From a virus, in the IMG/VR virus record IMGVR_UViG_3300046513_000093, positions 1-23,821 of that record: a stretch of DNA of 23,821 nt; one strand, 5' to 3'. The notes beneath the pieces were generated by a model. The model did no database searches, was not told where the DNA came from, and saw nothing but the letters and a program-made list of their open reading frames with translations. Below, piece by piece: positions 8,214-22,214 of the stretch. Within the stretch, counting starts at the first letter, position 1; each line of letters begins with the position of its first letter. Made by a program: the position numbers and the translations under genes.

Positions 8214-8911
8214 TGGCTGAGAGCATTTACGAAGATGTCCAGAAGCTTGAGGCAGGTCAGTATGTTGAACTGTTTGAGCTGGACCTGAGCGCGATCGCCG
8301 GCGACATCTACTACTTCCACGGTTACACGAAGCTTGGCGGTATCACTTGGCAGGGCGTTGAGTACTCGCCCTGGCCGATAAAGGTCGACGGCATGGGCAT
8401 GACCGGGGAAGGGCAGCAGAGCAACCCGACACTGGCCGTAGGCAACGTCACCGGATTCATCACCGCTCTGTGTGCGACGTATCAGGATCTGGTCGACGCG
8501 AAGGTTGTTCGCCACCGGACGCTGGGACGTTACCTCGATGCCGTCAACTTCACAGAGGGAAACCCTGAAGCGAATCCGGACGAGCATTTCACGGATGACG
8601 TCTACACCATCGATCAGAAGCAAGCGGCAGACGCGTCGAACGCCACCTTCGTTCTCAAGTCTCCGCTGATTGCGACCGATCGCAAGCTGCCGGGACGCCA
8701 AATTGTTGCCAACTGCTGTCAGTGGTTGGTGATCGGCGGGTACCGGGGGGCCTACTGCGGCTACACCGGTTCGGCCTACTTCACCGACAAGGACGTTCCG
8801 ACTGACGACCCTGCCAAAGACATCTGCTCCGGCACTCTCCTTGGCTGCAAGCTGCGCTTTGGCGCGAACAACCCGCTCCGCTACGGCTCATATCCGAGCG
8901 CAGGGTACTGA
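8213..8911 (+). CDS. L: Minor tail protein L, Fe-S-type cysteine set
   Basis: 232 residues from the ATG at 8213, which overlaps the M stop by one base. An upstream GTG at 8168 lies within M and is rejected. Lambda gpL is a tail-tip protein whose C-terminal domain binds a 4Fe-4S cluster. Here the C-terminal third has NCCQW (Cys168, Cys169), GAYCGYTG (Cys182), DICSG (Cys205) and LLGCKLRFG (Cys212), so four ligands can be supplied in the expected order. The N-terminal part has the usual ELFELDLSAI and WQGVEYSPWPIKVDG strands. The protein ends with the conserved FGANNPLRYG segment and a short SYPSAGY tail. It is one of the surest calls in the window. Confidence 0.92.
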   Translation: MAESIYEDVQKLEAGQYVELFELDLSAIAGDIYYFHGYTKLGGITWQGVEYSPWPIKVDGMGMTGEGQQSNPTLAVGNVTGFITALCATYQDLVDAKVVRHRTLGRYLDAVNFTEGNPEANPDEHFTDDVYTIDQKQAADASNATFVLKSPLIATDRKLPGRQIVANCCQWLVIGGYRGAYCGYTGSAYFTDKDVPTDDPAKDICSGTLLGCKLRFGANNPLRYGSYPSAGY

Positions 8912-8919
8912 GGTGTTGG

Positions 8920-9684
8920 ATGAGGCTTTCGAAGGACACCATCAAAGCGATCTATGACCACGCCCGGGCTTCGTTTCCCCAAGAGTCCTGCGGATTAATC
9001 ATTCGCTCCGGTAGGGCGAACAAATATGTCCCGACCCCAAACTTCGCCGAGAAGCCGGAAGACGATTTCAAAATCAGTGCTGAATCATGGGCGCTTGCCG
9101 AAGACCAGGGCGAGATCATCGCCATCGTGCACAGCCATCCCGGACAGTCAGCGCGGCTCAGCCATGCAGATCGAGTATCGATGGAGGGAACTGGACTGCC
9201 TTGGCTGATCGTTGAAGTGCGTGAGGGTGAACCGGTCAGCCATCTGATACATGAGCCGAGTGGCTATCAGGCGCCATTGATAGGGCGCCCGTTCAGGCAT
9301 GGGGTTCTCGACTGCTACTCACTGGTGCGCGATTACTACCAGCGCGAGCTCAACATCACGCTACCGGAATACGACCGCGAAGATGGATGGTGGAACGAGG
9401 GGAAGGACCTTTACACCGACAATTTCGAGGGAGCCGGCTTCGTCAAAATTGGACAGGCAGATCTCCAGCAGGGCGATCTGATTCTGATGCAAGTGCGGTC
9501 ACCGGTCCCTAATCATGCAGGCATCTACCTTGCGGATGGCATGCTCAAGACCGAGCCTGATCACCATCCGGTGCCGGGTTCGATCCTGCATCACCTGTAC
9601 GGCCGTGACTCGAAGCGTGATGTGTACGGCGGGTACTGGACCGAAGCCACACGTCTGGTCCTCAGGCACAGGGAGTCAAGGTAA
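8920..9684 (+). CDS. K: Tail tip protein K: JAMM peptidase plus NlpC/P60 hydrolase
   Basis: 254 residues. The N-terminal half is a JAMM/MPN metal-binding domain: Glu22 (PQESCG), His71-x-His73-Pro, Ser81 and Asp84 form the zinc-site pattern. The C-terminal half is an NlpC/P60 cysteine peptidase: Cys132 in HGVLDCYSLVRDYY and His199 in PNHAGIYLADG are the catalytic pair, with a further His near 224-225 (ILHHLYGRD). Lambda gpK is a tail protein of this two-domain type, needed for tip assembly and probably for peptidoglycan passage. All key residues of both domains are present, so both may be active. It begins eight bases after the L stop. In lambda K overlaps I, whereas here two extra genes follow. 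Confidence 0.92.
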   Translation: MRLSKDTIKAIYDHARASFPQESCGLIIRSGRANKYVPTPNFAEKPEDDFKISAESWALAEDQGEIIAIVHSHPGQSARLSHADRVSMEGTGLPWLIVEVREGEPVSHLIHEPSGYQAPLIGRPFRHGVLDCYSLVRDYYQRELNITLPEYDREDGWWNEGKDLYTDNFEGAGFVKIGQADLQQGDLILMQVRSPVPNHAGIYLADGMLKTEPDHHPVPGSILHHLYGRDSKRDVYGGYWTEATRLVLRHRESR

Positions 9685-9699
9685 CGGCGGAAGGGGAAA

Positions 9700-9727
9700 T
9701 TTTGTGATGCTTCCGATTGGTGATAAC
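9700..9727 (+). promoter_or_regulatory. Possible promoter for the K-I cassette
   Basis: In the 69-base gap after K, TTTTGT (9700-9705) and GATAAC (9722-9727) are 16 bases apart, and TTGTGA with TAACTT is an alternative pairing. Both are weak matches to sigma-70 boxes, but the gap is more AT-rich than its surroundings and a terminator closes the cassette. This is a candidate only. Confidence 0.25.
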
Positions 9728-9753
9728 TTTTCACGATCAACAGGGAGTTATCC

Positions 9754-10089
9754 ATGCACAACGAATCACTTTCCTTCGGGGCGATCCTTCTCCTAGCCGT
9801 CGCTTTCGTTATCTATTTTGTGCCTACCATCGTTTCGCAGTGGAGGCTACATCATAACGCCACGGCAATTTTCATCTTAAACCTCGTCCTCGGATGGACC
9901 TTTCTGGGTTGGGTGGTAGCGTTGATCTGGTCGTTTTCAGCTGTGGCGAAGCCGGTTGCAGCGAAGCCCGCCGGACCTGTCAAGGATGACAAATACTCAG
10001 CACTTGAACGCCTCGGCAGTCTGAAAGATAAAGGGCTCATCAGCGACCAGGAATTCGACCAAGAGAAGGCGAAAATCCTTCAATCATGA
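9754..10089 (+). CDS. Superinfection immunity membrane protein with SHOCT tail
   Basis: 111 residues; AGGGAG precedes the ATG by a normal distance. The first two thirds have two membrane segments (about residues 8-29 and 37-61), with the Imm_superinfect-type signature between and in the second: RLHHNATAIFILNLVLGWT followed by GWVVALIW. T4 Imm, the named member of this idea, blocks DNA injection by a second phage. After an alanine/proline/lysine linker (residues 64-78) comes a SHOCT-like helix pair (ALERLGSLKDKGLISDQEF, residues 83-101), a short domain found at the ends of many bacterial and phage proteins. The gene lies between K and I, where lambda has none, and has its own spacing and ribosome site, so it is read as a moron. 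The exclusion function here is inferred from the family. Confidence 0.8.
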   Translation: MHNESLSFGAILLLAVAFVIYFVPTIVSQWRLHHNATAIFILNLVLGWTFLGWVVALIWSFSAVAKPVAAKPAGPVKDDKYSALERLGSLKDKGLISDQEFDQEKAKILQS

Positions 10090-10099
10090 GGAGGTATTG

Positions 10100-10450
10100 A
10101 TGCGAATTTTAATAGGGGCGCTTGCGGTTGCCCTGCTGGCGGGGTGCGTGTCCCCGACGATCAGCCAAATGCGAGACAAGGGCCCGGCAGCAACTTATAC
10201 GTCGGCGAAGTCAGAAGGCGATTTGTCTAAATGCGTGCTCTTTGCCTGGCAGGACACCAGCCTTGCTGGGAGTGCGCCGGCGGTGAGCATTCAGCCTGGC
10301 CGGGATGGCGGGACTACAGTGAGCACAGGAGGCAACGAGTATTTCGTTGACCTGAAAAGTGCCGGTTCAAAAACCTCAGCTCGGTATTACGAGGTCGGCG
10401 ACACATGGATATCAAGAAAGCTTCAGCCCGAGTTAAAGAGTTGCTTGTGA
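10100..10450 (+). CDS. Small phage lipoprotein, possible exclusion partner
   Basis: 116 residues from ATG 10100; GAGGAGG lies just upstream (a TTG at 10097 is one codon earlier and less likely). The N-terminus is a lipoprotein signal: basic Arg2, hydrophobic core, lipobox Leu-Ala-Gly-Cys with Cys16 as the acylated residue. Residue +2 is Val, not Asp, so sorting to the outer membrane is expected. The mature part is small, with two further cysteines (SKCVLFAW and the C-terminal SCL), which may form a disulfide in the periplasm. I do not recognise the family. It begins 10 bases after the superinfection immunity gene, and phage lipoproteins such as Cor act by blocking receptors, so a joint exclusion role is a reasonable inference. 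Confidence 0.75.
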   Translation: MRILIGALAVALLAGCVSPTISQMRDKGPAATYTSAKSEGDLSKCVLFAWQDTSLAGSAPAVSIQPGRDGGTTVSTGGNEYFVDLKSAGSKTSARYYEVGDTWISRKLQPELKSCL

Positions 10451-10470
10451 GAAGCTGACCAACAAACACA

Positions 10471-10493
10471 AACCCGCTACGGCGGGTTTTTTT
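10471..10493 (+). terminator. Intrinsic terminator closing the K-I cassette
   Basis: AACCCGC, loop TACG, GCGGGTT followed by a seven-T run (10487-10493): a perfect 7-bp stem extended by one A-T pair. This is the clearest intrinsic terminator in the late region, yet it stands between lipoprotein and I, upstream of essential tail genes, so late transcription must read through it. Confidence 0.85.
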
Positions 10494-10506
10494 ACGGGTG
10501 GGGAAA

Positions 10507-11133
10507 ATGGCTGAACGACTTCGGACCGTTAGGCTTTACGGAAAACTTGGCGCCAGATTCGGCCGCGTACACCACATCGCCGTTAGTTCAGCAGCAGAGG
10601 CTGTTCGCGCACTTGGCGTTCTACACAAAGGATTCAACGAATTCTTGTTAACGTCCAAAGATATGGGTCTGGATTTCGCAGTTTTCTATGGCCGCCGAAA
10701 CCTCAGTCAAGGCGAACTGCGAGATCCTCCCAGCCACAACGACATCCGTATAGCTCCGGTAGTGCAAGGGAGCAAGAGCGGCGGAGGGCTGCAAACTGTA
10801 ATCGGCGTCGTATTGATCGCTGTAGCAAGTTATTTCTCGGGTGGCTTGGCTGCAGGAGGTGCCACCTTGTACGGCTCTGCGGCGGGGGCTGCGGCTTGGA
10901 CGGTAGTGGGCGCGGTCGGCTTTTCTCTCGCCATCGGCGGCATTGCTCAGATGATTACGGGCACCCAAACAGGCATCGACAGCAGCGAAGCCGCGGACAA
11001 CCAGCCGAGTTACAACTTCTCAGGCATCAAGAACACCGTCACCCAAGGCAACCCGGTACCGCTGTGCTACGGCGAGATGACCGTGGGTTCCGCCATGATT
11101 TCACTGGGCATCGTCGCCGAAGACGAACAGTAA
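10507..11133 (+). CDS. I: Tail assembly protein I
   Basis: 208 residues from ATG 10507. A GTG at 10498 would add three residues, but GGTGGGG just ahead of 10507 reads better as the ribosome site. Lambda gpI is a tail-tip assembly protein with a small ubiquitin-like N-terminal domain and a glycine-rich hydrophobic middle. The same pattern is seen: RTVRLYGKLGARFGR at residues 6-20, a SHNDIRIAPVVQGSKSGGG junction near 75-95, then long hydrophobic Gly/Ala segments (VIGVVLIAVASYFSGGLAAG and beyond) and the C-terminal IKNTVTQGNPVPLCYGE and GSAMISLGI motifs shared by this family. J follows ten bases later. Assigned by pattern and by order K-I-J. Confidence 0.9.
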   Translation: MAERLRTVRLYGKLGARFGRVHHIAVSSAAEAVRALGVLHKGFNEFLLTSKDMGLDFAVFYGRRNLSQGELRDPPSHNDIRIAPVVQGSKSGGGLQTVIGVVLIAVASYFSGGLAAGGATLYGSAAGAAAWTVVGAVGFSLAIGGIAQMITGTQTGIDSSEAADNQPSYNFSGIKNTVTQGNPVPLCYGEMTVGSAMISLGIVAEDEQ

Positions 11134-11143
11134 GGGCTTTCCA

Positions 11144-14100
11144 ATGACCGACACCATCGTTCGCGGCTCCAAAGGCAGCGAAAGCAGCCACACGCCTGTA
11201 GAAAGCCCGGACAGCCTGATCAACACCAGTTACGCGAACATTCTGGACGCCATCAGCGAGGGGCCAATCGTCGGCCTGGTCAACGGCGCTCGGTCCATTT
11301 ATCTGGACGAGACACCGATTCAAGGCACCGATGGGTCCATGAATTTCACCGGCGTTACCTGGGAGCAGCGGTTCGGCGAGCACGATCAGGATTACATCAC
11401 CGGCTTTCCGTCTGTAGAGACCGAACACGCGGTCGGCGTTGAGCTGAAAGCGTCGCAGCCATGGACCCAGAGCCTGAGCAACCTGCAGTTGTCTGGCGCT
11501 CGTCTGCGCCTTGGGGCGTCGGCCCTGTATCAGCAGAACAGCGACGGCGATACCACCGGTTTCACGGTGAACTATGTCGTCGAGCTTTCCACGGACGGCT
11601 CGGACTATGTGCCGATCATCACCACTGCGTTCAACGGCAAGACCACCACCGGCTATCAGCGCTCGCACCGAATCGATCTTCCAGCGGCTGAAGAAGGTTG
11701 GTCTATCCGCGTCCGCCGCACGACGCCTGACTACACCGATGCCAAGATCGGCGACACCACGACGGTGGTCAGCTACACCGAAGTCATCGACGCCAAGCTG
11801 CAATATCCCTACACCGCTTTGGTTGGGATCAAGATCGATGCGAGCCAGTTTTCGAACATTCCTGAGCGCGCTTTCCGCATCAAAGGCCGCATCATCCAAG
11901 TGCCGAGCAACTACACCCCAGAGTCGCGCACCTATTCGGGCACTTGGGATGGCACGTTCAAACTGGCTTGGACCGACAACCCCGCGTGGATCTACCGCGA
12001 CATCATCATCAATGATCGCTACGGTCTGGGCCGCTTCATCAGCAGCGACAACGTCGACAAGTGGGAGCTCTACCAGATCGCGCAGTACTGCGATGCGATG
12101 GTCTCGGACGGTAAGGGCGGGCAGGAGCCTCGTTTCACCTGCAACCTGTACTTGCAGTCGCGCGCCGATGCGCTCCAGGTACTGCAAGATCTGGCCAGTA
12201 TCTTTCGCGGCATGGCCTATTACGCTGGGAGTGAAGTAGTCGCGTCCGCTGATATGCCAAACGACCCGGTGTACACCTACACCAATGCCAACGTCATCGA
12301 AGGCTATTTCAGCCGCCCAGGCTCGTCCGGATCCACTCGTTTCAGCGTTGCGAAAGTCAGCTGGACCGATCGCGACGACTTCGGCGCACAGAAAGTCGAG
12401 TATGTGCCGAACACAAAGGCCATCGCTCGCTACGGCATTCGCGAGACTGAAATCACGGCGTTCGGCTGCGTGTCGCAAGGCCAGGCCCAGCGTCTCGGTC
12501 ATTACACGCTGCTGACCAACCAGTTGGAAACCGGCACCATTCAGTTCAGTGTCGGGCTGGATGGAGTGCTCGCGCGCCCAGGCCAGATCATCCGTGTTGC
12601 AGACCAGCACTACGCGGGCAAGCCCATCGGCGGCCGAGTCAAGGCTTCGACCACGAACAGCGTCACTGTTGACGATGACCTCACCGTCGCCGCCGGCGGT
12701 ACTCTGGTTGTCATCCAGCCGAACGGTACGGCTCAGACTCGCGTCATCAAAACCGTTGCGGGCCGCGTGATCACGGTCACCGAAAATTTCAGCGCTGCTC
12801 CAGTCACCGAGTCGGTCTACGCGATCGAGACCGCAGAGGTCGTGCCTGAAACCTATCGCATCCTGACCATCACCGAGAACTTCGGGGACGACAAGCTTCA
12901 ATACGACGTGGTCGCGGTTCAGCACAACGCGAGCAAATTTGCCGCCATCGACAGCGGTGCGCAGATCGTCACGCCTCCAACCACCACGCTTCCGGGCGCG
13001 GTGCAGGCAATGCCTACCAATATCCAGCTCTCGACCTATGAGGCCGTGAAGCAGGGCCTGACGATCGCAACCATGCGCATTACGTGGGAGCCTGCACGCA
13101 GCGCACAGAGCTATCAGGTCTGGTGGAAGAAAGATTCGGGCGACTGGGTCTATGCCGGTATCACTTACACGTCATCGATTGAGGTGTCGGGCATTTACTC
13201 CGGCACCTACACGGCTCGGGTTTCGGCTGTTGGCGTGAATGGCAACTCGTCCCTGTGGGCGTATTCCGAACCTACTCTGCTGAACGGCAAGGAAGGTCTG
13301 CCGCCTGCGATCACATCGCTGACCACCGAGAGTCTTATTTTCGGCATCGGTCTGAAATGGACCTTTCCGCCTGACGCGGAAGACACCCAGCGTACAGAGC
13401 TGTGGTACAGCCAGGCGCCTGATCTGGCGACGGCTATTAAGCTTGCCGATCTGGCTTACCCGCAATCCGACTACACCATGCAGGGCCTGCGCGCGGGTCA
13501 GTCGTTCTTTTTCTGGGCGCGCCTCGTCGACCGCACCGGCAACCTCGGTCCGTGGTTCCCGCAAGCACCCACTGTCGTGAACGGCCAGGCCAGCGCCGAT
13601 GCCGATGACATCCTCGACTACCTCACCGGCGAGATCACCGAAAGCCAGCTGGGTCAGGAACTGCTGGGGGAAATTGGCAAGATCGGCGGCGACGGGCCGG
13701 GCTCGGTTAATGAACGCCTCGACCAGGTGAAAACCGATCTCGGAGACCAGATCACCGACGTCAACAACACCGTGACCGAGGTGCAGACTGAGCTGCAAGC
13801 GCAGATCGATCAGATCGCGGATCTGGCTGACTCGATGCCGTACAAGCCAGACGACACTTACACCACCGGGCAATCCACCCTTGGCGAAGACGGGTTTTTG
13901 TATCAGGCGACACAGAACGTACCGAAAAACACGCCACCGCCGAACACTGCCTACTGGCTCAATGTCGGTCAGGCGGTGCAGACAGCAAACGGCCTGGCCG
14001 CGCGCGTCACCACCGCTGAAACCAAGATCACCAACATCGAGGGCGTCACCACCGCGCAGGCGAACCAGATTACGGGCCTGCAAACGAGCTTGACCACCAC

Positions 14101-20352: not shown

Positions 20353-20703
20353 ATGAGCTTTGCCATGCTTTTCGATCAACAGAAAATCTCTCTTGACCAG
20401 CTACTCAACATCCGCGCGCCTGGCACCTACCTAATAAAGGTGGAAGGGGACAGCATGCAGGGTGCAGGAATCTTTTCCGGTGACATCCTGATTGTGGATA
20501 AGGGAATAGAGCCTGCCGCCGGCAGAGTCGTGATTGCGCTGGTCAACCGCGATCCGCTGGTGAAATACCTGTCGTTCGTGGACGGAATGCCGGTGCTCAC
20601 ATCAGCGAATTCCAAATACCCGGCGCGCTACATACTTGAGAACGATGAATTCGAGGTGTGGGGCGTGGTTACCTACAGTATCCGGGACCACGACAGGAAT
20701 TGA
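20353..20703 (+). CDS. UmuD'-like S24 peptidase-fold protein (HumD-like)
   Basis: 116 residues. The sequence follows the C-terminal part of UmuD nearly end to end: LDQLLNIRAPGTYLIKVEG, catalytic-type Ser34 (EGDSM), DILIVD, and Lys71 (PLVKYL), 37 residues apart as Ser60-Lys97 in E. coli UmuD. Met1 aligns near UmuD residue 27, after the Cys24-Gly25 cleavage site, so the protein has no self-cleavage arm and is made directly in the UmuD' form. Phage P1 HumD is a known protein of this design. UmuD' pairs with UmuC in translesion synthesis (DNA polymerase V); no umuC lies beside it here, so host UmuC or RulB would be needed. No Shine-Dalgarno is seen; the LexA box occupies the leader. Confidence 0.85.
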   Translation: MSFAMLFDQQKISLDQLLNIRAPGTYLIKVEGDSMQGAGIFSGDILIVDKGIEPAAGRVVIALVNRDPLVKYLSFVDGMPVLTSANSKYPARYILENDEFEVWGVVTYSIRDHDRN

Positions 20704-20737: not shown

Positions 20738-21925
20738 TCACACCTTACCCTTGGCGGCCTTCGTGATAATGTCCGCCCATTCCTGCATCATGTCCCGTCG
20801 CTGCTCAAGGTACGTGGCATGGTTGTAGACATCGCGGATGATGCTGGTGTCTGCGTGCGCCAGTTGTCGCTCGATCCAATCCCGGTTGTAACCCTTGTGG
20901 TTCATCTCGGTTGAGAACAAATGTCTGAATCCGTGCGGCGACTGTATGCCAGTCAACCCGCACTGCTCGATCACCCCGTTCGCATAATTGGTGCCGATCG
21001 GCCGCTTGTTGTCGGTCCGGTTCACAAACACGTACTGCAGATGCCCGGTGAGGGGAAGCATGATTTTCAGTAGCTCAACCGCCTGCGTCGGGAGGGGCAC
21101 GGCATGGTTACGGCGCATCTTCATTTTGCTTGCCGGTATGGTCCAGGTGGCCGAATCCAGATCGATTTCCGACCATTCGGCGTGACGAACCTCGCCCGGG
21201 CGAGCCGCCGAATAAAGCATTAGCATGAAGGCCGACTTGATCTGCTGGCCAACATTCGCGGCGTTGATCGTCGCCAGCGTCTTCGGCAACTCGCTGATGG
21301 GCAGAAACGGGTGGGGCTGGTGCTGTCCGATCTTCTCCGTGACTGCGTGCATTTCTGCTGTGGGGTTGACTGTGATAACTCCGGTTGCGATCGCGTACCG
21401 GAAAACCTGACCCATCAGCTGCCGTGTCTTCACTGCGGTCGCGACGGATCCTCGCCTCTCTATCCGGCGGACGATACTCACGATGTCCGAACGGGTTATC
21501 GAGCTGATCTGCCGGCTACCGAAGACCGGCAGCCAGTCCAGTTCCATGGCGTTGCTGATCACCCGCAAGGTGCCCGGCGTCAGCTTTCCTTTGCGGAAGG
21601 CGAACCACTCCTCATACACGCGGCGGAACGTGTAGCCGCTCTCCTCAAGGGCCTGAACCCTTTTCTCCTTTCTCGATTCGCGCGGGTCAACTCCCTGCGC
21701 TACCTCTTCGCGGGCTTCATCACGCCGCGCCCGTGCCTCTTTCAAACCAATCTCTGGGTATGTGCCCAACGATATTCGGACCTGTTTGCCCAGCCAGGTG
21801 AAACGAAAGTGCCAGCTCTTCACGCCACCTGGTGCGATGTACATCGTCAATCCAAGCGAGTCGGCGAGCGTATAGGGTTTGTCCTTGGGTTTTGCCTGTC
21901 GAAGTGCGGTATCAGTGAGGGCCAC
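20738..21925 (-). CDS. int: Prophage tyrosine integrase, P4 type
   Basis: 395 residues from GTG at 21925 (minus), with AGGGA upstream. An ATG at 22060 would add 45 residues of Ser/Thr-rich sequence with no ribosome site, crossing repeat motifs that look regulatory, so GTG is preferred but unproven. An N-terminal DUF4102-type arm-binding domain (ALTDTALRQAKPKDKPYTLA, then GLTMYIAPGG and RFTWLGKQ) precedes a core-binding helical domain and the catalytic domain: Arg242 (AARPGEVR), Lys267 or Lys269 (ASKMKMRRNH), His331 and Arg334 (SPHGFRHLF), His357 (QLAHAD) and nucleophile Tyr367 (VYNHATYLEQR). All catalytic residues are present. It integrates and excises the prophage at the attachment site, which for this type usually lies just upstream of int. 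It is convergent with the UmuD'-like gene, 34 bases apart. Confidence 0.92.
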   Translation of the reverse strand: MALTDTALRQAKPKDKPYTLADSLGLTMYIAPGGVKSWHFRFTWLGKQVRISLGTYPEIGLKEARARRDEAREEVAQGVDPRESRKEKRVQALEESGYTFRRVYEEWFAFRKGKLTPGTLRVISNAMELDWLPVFGSRQISSITRSDIVSIVRRIERRGSVATAVKTRQLMGQVFRYAIATGVITVNPTAEMHAVTEKIGQHQPHPFLPISELPKTLATINAANVGQQIKSAFMLMLYSAARPGEVRHAEWSEIDLDSATWTIPASKMKMRRNHAVPLPTQAVELLKIMLPLTGHLQYVFVNRTDNKRPIGTNYANGVIEQCGLTGIQSPHGFRHLFSTEMNHKGYNRDWIERQLAHADTSIIRDVYNHATYLEQRRDMMQEWADIITKAAKGKV

Positions 21926-22214
21926 CAGTACATTCCCTGTGGGGTTATCGGTCAATGTACTGGATGATGTACTAACTGTCGTGTCTTGGGAAGGTTTGGG
22001 ATGGTACTCGGCGGTACGCCAAATCAGCGCCTTTGCGGGCTGAGGCTGTATTTCTGACATGTGCCGGTTTGGGATGGGAAATCAGAGTGGAAACCTTGAA
22101 GATTTCCACGGTATTGAGAGCCTTGAAAGGTGGCGATCGCCTGGGCGAAAAAATGCAGGCAGCGAGTTTACCAGCAATGGTTTGCCCAAGCACAGCCAGA
22201 ACCTGACTCGATGG
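21926..22214. other. Repeat-rich region upstream of int; probable prophage-host junction
   Basis: About 290 bases without a convincing gene. It contains ATGTACT at 21955-21961 and 21967-21973 plus its inverse AGTACAT at 21927-21933; a 12-base direct repeat GGTTTGGGATGG at 21993-22004 and 22066-22077; an inverted repeat GTGGAAA/TTTCCAC (22087-22093, 22103-22109); and the 10-bp palindrome GGCGATCGCC at 22132-22141. These could be integrase arm sites, the att core, or the int operator. No tRNA or tmRNA gene end is recognised, so the exact junction cannot be fixed. Confidence 0.5.

Follow-up and report, generated by a model that had tools for sequence, protein, structure and literature searches.

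The window analysed here is the whole 23,821-base stretch of an IMG/VR viral record with a lambda-like tail operon. Two genes, referred to below as IMM and LIP, lie between the tail genes K and I, and gene L also flanks this cassette, as the original prediction described. All bacterial-genome relatives of the window's LIP were found in Pseudomonas (19/19 loci), and the prophage carrying the cassette is a Pseudomonas prophage. Elsewhere in the window, a UmuD/HumD-like gene (20353-20703) stands next to an integrase-like gene on the minus strand (20738-22060); these two genes are consistent with a temperate phage. Rfam gave no match in 8500-11500, and PADLOC gave none for IMM or LIP. The features of the region are as follows.

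8920-9684, plus strand: tail tip gene K, with JAB and NlpC/P60 domains; left border of a variable slot, with the K stop at 9684
9702-9729, plus strand: putative promoter, with TTGTGA at 9702-9707, a 16-nt spacer and an extended -10 element, TGATAACTT, at 9721-9729, 33 nt before the IMM start
9754-10089, plus strand: IMM, a putative membrane protein with PF14373 (residues 20-61) and a SHOCT tail (residues 83-109); T4 Imm family
10100-10450, plus strand: LIP, a 116-aa lipoprotein of the phrog_914 class
10100-10147, plus strand: LIP signal-peptide sequence, MRILIGALAVALLAGC; exact point at which similarity to other phages resumes
10470-10493, plus strand: intrinsic terminator, 3' of LIP
10507-11133, plus strand: tail assembly gene I (Lambda_tail_I); right border; an in-frame upstream GTG start at 10498 is also possible

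The original prediction placed an Imm_superinfect-like protein with a SHOCT tail and a lipoprotein between K and I, and both identifications are borne out by matches to PF14373 and SHOCT and by the lipobox and phrog_914 match. The moron layout that it proposed likewise agrees with a promoter-like motif, two closely spaced genes and a terminator. The split between K and I is confirmed as well, with one correction: a moron-filled K-I gap is not unusual, given that HK022 has an annotated moron there and that many Pseudomonas prophages carry LIP in this gap.

LIP and the variable slot between K and I

As a sample in which LIP did not determine the choice, 30 I loci were picked from 119 Pseudomonas genomes. 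LIP lies directly upstream of I in 16 of them, and in 11 the K and I genes are adjacent or almost adjacent. Among the 80 viral loci found with LIP, the gene directly precedes I in nearly all and sits between I and J in a few. LIP is the gene that usually fills this gap in lambda-like prophages of Pseudomonas. Compared with its nearest relatives, the window loses DNA similarity 14 nt short of the K stop, around 9668-9670, and regains it exactly at the LIP ATG (10100). In several relatives, the similarity covers just the 47-48 nt of signal-peptide sequence and is then lost once more. With break points near 9670 and at 10100 and with K and I adjoining or nearly so in 11/30 loci, the cassette shows the insertion between otherwise adjacent genes that defines a moron.

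The interval between K and LIP is 27-49 bp long in 12 loci; in all others it spans 0.4-4.9 kb. It is either empty or holds unrelated genes, often of toxin or abortive type, and its mechanically called ORFs fall into about 150 clusters on both strands. When ten of the cargo proteins were submitted to Pfam, eight were matched (zeta toxin, YhaV toxin, SocA/Panacea antitoxin, HEPN AbiU2, NYN-LOTUS, IrrE-like peptidase, BRO, GNAT). The slot thus looks like a cargo hot spot in Pseudomonas prophages. Toxin-, antitoxin-, abortive- and regulator-type cargo was observed before LIP in loci L075, L117, L131, L127, L103, L092, L133 and L111. In addition, a short GCGGC-N-GCCGC AGGAG element occurs right after the K stop in many cargo-bearing loci (L066, L067, L081 and others), followed by a small plus-strand ORF and often by a small minus-strand ORF too.

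LIP is usually preceded by a motif of its own. Of 82 distinct loci, 58 have the extended -10 motif TGNTANNNT at 25-45 nt ahead of LIP, almost always at -33 to -36, compared with a mean of 1.5 and a maximum of 6 in shuffles and with 1 and 0 in neighbouring windows. As the motif was noticed in these same data before it was counted and the related sequences are not independent, these counts are read as conservation and not as strict probabilities. The window's LIP has no such motif. Instead, TGATAACTT at 9721-9729, ahead of IMM, is the motif that relatives conserve in front of their LIP and IMM genes; its TAACTT is preceded by TTGTGA at a distance of 16 nt. The window's own -35 and -10 matches (TTGTGA, TAACTT) are weak, and a generic sigma-70 scan found no promoter before IMM. 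The possible weak promoter anticipated before the cassette has its candidate in this conserved promoter-like element. A terminator after the cassette was also anticipated and is confirmed at 10470-10493, where a stem AAACCCGC-TACG-GCGGGTTT is followed by TTTT; 72 of 76 distinct related loci have a terminator at the same place after LIP, and equal-length controls started inside LIP have none. From the conserved motif and terminator, the cassette also appears to have the transcription signals expected of a moron.

LIP contains the lipobox LLAGC and matches phrog_914 at 1.1e-17 over profile positions 1-118, that is, full length. Three cysteines, the lipid-bearing C16 together with C45 and C115, are invariant across an alignment of 41 class A members. 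The predicted structure is a small alpha/beta domain after the lipid anchor, modelled with good confidence (pLDDT 89). Searches of the PDB gave no useful match by sequence and no structural match at E<=0.001; because the structural matches, with the lipoproteins Flpp3 and BamC N-domain among them, are only middling, we draw no conclusion on function from the fold. The same signal peptide precedes two unrelated mature domains, that of class A (phrog_914) and that of class B (phrog_890); the viral LIP set was partly found via the signal-peptide pattern, and the set based on I, too, has one signal peptide, MRILIAAVAVAMLAGC, ahead of both class A and class B domains.

The position of LIP directly before I in the tail operon of many phages would also suit a tail assembly or virion component of the late operon. 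We regard this as very improbable indeed: LIP has a lipoprotein signal, its own promoter motif and a terminator, it is missing from the 11/30 loci in which K and I are neighbours, and unrelated domains can be found in place of its mature part.

A role outside phage exclusion deserves more weight. LIP divergence follows that of the neighbouring I (partial r 0.34) and shows no correlation with the J tip, taken as the last 250 residues (partial Mantel r 0.006, p 0.4). Matching of LIP to a receptor through the J tip was rejected on this value, which is weak evidence since the last 250 J residues may not be the receptor-binding part. Profile matches to phrog_914 occur in 98 of 119 Pseudomonas genomes, mostly 2-6 each, and several lie away from recognised phage genes. 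For example, phrog_914-like lipoproteins were seen at L377, L379 and L380 on Pseudomonas chromosomes, where the surrounding sequence that was read contained no recognisable phage gene. As relatives are chromosomal in many Pseudomonas genomes, the role of LIP may not be exclusion. LIP, and perhaps IMM, could instead serve lysogenic conversion by changing the envelope (stress, transport, surface contacts). The independence from the J tip, the chromosomal relatives and the many kinds of cargo in the K-LIP slot favour this explanation, but IMM belongs to the T4 Imm family and is often found at the HK97 gp15 exclusion site, and we consider this explanation rather unlikely.

IMM and its genomic sites

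IMM (111 aa) matches PF14373 (Imm_superinfect) at 56.3 bits, above the curated cut-off of 27.9, a family whose function rests on T4 Imm. It also matches SHOCT (PF09851) at 36.1 bits (cut-off 27). Homology to T4 Imm is found by BLASTP (2e-10) and HHalign (97%), and T4 Imm itself hits PF14373 at 58 bits. AlphaFold predicts two long N-terminal helices (2-28 and 36-64), both hydrophobic, and two C-terminal helices, with modest confidence (pLDDT 75, pTM 0.37). The dN/dS values are 0.07-0.34 for IMM pairs and about 0.1 for close LIP pairs; with such values in close pairs, both genes are maintained as proteins. Given its homology to T4 Imm, the likeliest role of IMM would be an inner-membrane block of DNA entry.

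PF14373 was found in 24 of 399 Pseudomonas genomes, directly before the tape measure gene in 8 of the 24 and directly before LIP and I in 4. Among 171 viral-contig IMM loci, 57 are followed by the tape measure gene and 9 by LIP and I, and many members are outside tail sites (104 in other surroundings). The commonest tail site of IMM is just before the tape measure gene, which is the site of the HK97 gp15 exclusion moron, and most tail-linked IMM genes stand there alone. These units have the same signals as LIP: the TGNTANNNT motif is present in 35 of 43 (shuffles: mean 1.3, maximum 6), and 42 of 43 have a terminator. The window's IMM does not have the pre-tape-measure location of gp15, but most of its tail-linked relatives do. 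Together with the T4 Imm homology, the gp15-site position of these relatives lends support to exclusion as the predicted activity of IMM.

Pairing of IMM and LIP

About 13 distinct loci, the window included, have the order IMM-LIP-I; they are a minority of the related phages. In 11 of them, IMM is of the Zn-ribbon subtype and there is a 4-nt overlap between its stop and the LIP start; LIP, which belongs to class A or class B, has no motif of its own in these loci. Overall, two IMM subtypes, Zn-ribbon and SHOCT, and the two LIP classes occur in this arrangement. Locus L286 has a SHOCT IMM like the window's, and its LIP keeps its own motif. The nearest comparison, L148 (Pseudomonas sp. LS-2), is a near-identical phage (LIP 97%, I 99%), and its roughly 108-bp K-LIP interval holds the LIP motif and no IMM. 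At 4402-4510 of L088, upstream of IMM, the promoter motif, RBS and ATGCGTATTTTGATAGGAGCGC of a former LIP start are left over, suggesting that the cargo of this locus was inserted inside an earlier LIP gene.

The original prediction suggested a two-layer exclusion system and proposed a search for co-occurrence of its two genes. The pair does recur, in tightly overlapping form at 11 loci, but most LIP genes occur without IMM, as do most tail-linked IMM genes without LIP. The pair is consequently not one fixed unit, as the presence of LIP only in L148 also illustrates. Two readings were discarded: an obligate two-gene unit is ruled out by the usual occurrence of LIP without IMM and vice versa, and a pair nearly unique to the window, shared only with L088, is ruled out by the approximately 13 distinct loci from the genome and viral searches. 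No description of the IMM-LIP pair as a unit was found in the literature searches made.

These data bear on whether the proteins have evolved to cooperate, LIP in the outer membrane and IMM in the inner membrane, with the operon existing because both are needed. The approximately 13 loci, the 4-nt overlap without a separate LIP motif in 11 of them and the occurrence of two IMM subtypes in the same slot speak for such a co-evolved unit. Set against this are the many LIP and IMM genes that occur without each other, and the fact that the same IMM subtype precedes either class A LIP (several subtypes) or the unrelated class B LIP, so that no specific protein match is kept. We judge co-evolution of the two layers to be quite unlikely. 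Equally doubtful in our estimation is a form of cooperation in which a recurrent exclusion operon couples a generic inner-membrane blocker of DNA entry (IMM) with outer-membrane lipoproteins that can be exchanged and that determine the range of phages blocked. Cooperation between IMM and LIP stays under consideration because 11 loci couple the two genes so tightly.

Proposed explanation and comparison with known exclusion genes

The cassette is probably a composite moron of two independently mobile genes, in which IMM joined a resident LIP and both are read as one unit in the prophage. We prefer this reading because of the homologies, gene order, break points, conserved motif and terminator, and the recurrence of the arrangement. 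IMM, with its own promoter motif, occupies the position where the LIP promoter would be. Both genes are probably carried on one short mRNA (approximately 9735-10493) from an otherwise silent prophage, and in the lytic cycle late transcription would simply continue across the cassette. By its homology, IMM would most likely be in the inner membrane and stop the entry of superinfecting-phage DNA, as T4 Imm does. LIP would most likely be anchored in the outer membrane facing the periplasm, where it may alter the lysogen envelope and perhaps also act as an exclusion factor. The parts are of known kinds in a new combination, which recurs but is not fixed; it is not a new kind of system.

Known exclusion genes resemble the two components to different degrees. 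T4 Imm (PF14373, phrog_1039) has a domain homologous to that of IMM, putatively a two-helix membrane domain. The window's IMM differs in having a SHOCT tail and in being a temperate-phage moron, whereas T4 imm is a lytic-phage gene. HK97 gp15 and HK022 gp20 (YebO, phrog_5031) are likewise short tail-region morons, and they use the same two sites as IMM. These two are of one family: gp15 (HK97, NC_002167; L221:704-892) lies before the tape measure gene and gp20 (HK022, NC_002166; L147:4749-4973) between K and I. In contrast to the cassette, they are single-gene morons and are not homologous to IMM: both match YebO/phrog_5031, and IMM does not. HK97 gp15 is reported to block DNA injection, and escape from it to map to the tail tube/tape measure genes (PMC10883804).

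For LIP, the closest parallels are Cor (N15/phi80), Llp (T5) and Rtp45 (Rtp), which, like LIP, are small phage lipoproteins and are known for exclusion. Of these, Llp and Rtp45 reportedly work on an outer-membrane receptor from its periplasmic side (PMC12685063). No homology of LIP to Cor was found, as LIP matches phrog_914 and N15 Cor matches phrog_1119, a different family. LIP further differs from Cor, Llp and Rtp45 in its 100-residue mature domain, in having no known receptor and in not tracking the J tip. Since its divergence does not follow J and phrog_914 has chromosomal relatives, assigning LIP to exclusion is guesswork that relies on the analogy to these three proteins.

The comparison has implications beyond this window. 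Coliphages have YebO-type membrane-protein morons and Pseudomonas phages have unrelated Imm-type ones, and both families are placed at one shared pair of positions in the tail operon, ahead of the tape measure gene and in the K-I gap. This placement gives a simple positional rule by which exclusion genes so far unrecognised can be sought. Should the two proteins of the cassette cooperate, a two-membrane block could readily be tested on the coupled form of the pair.
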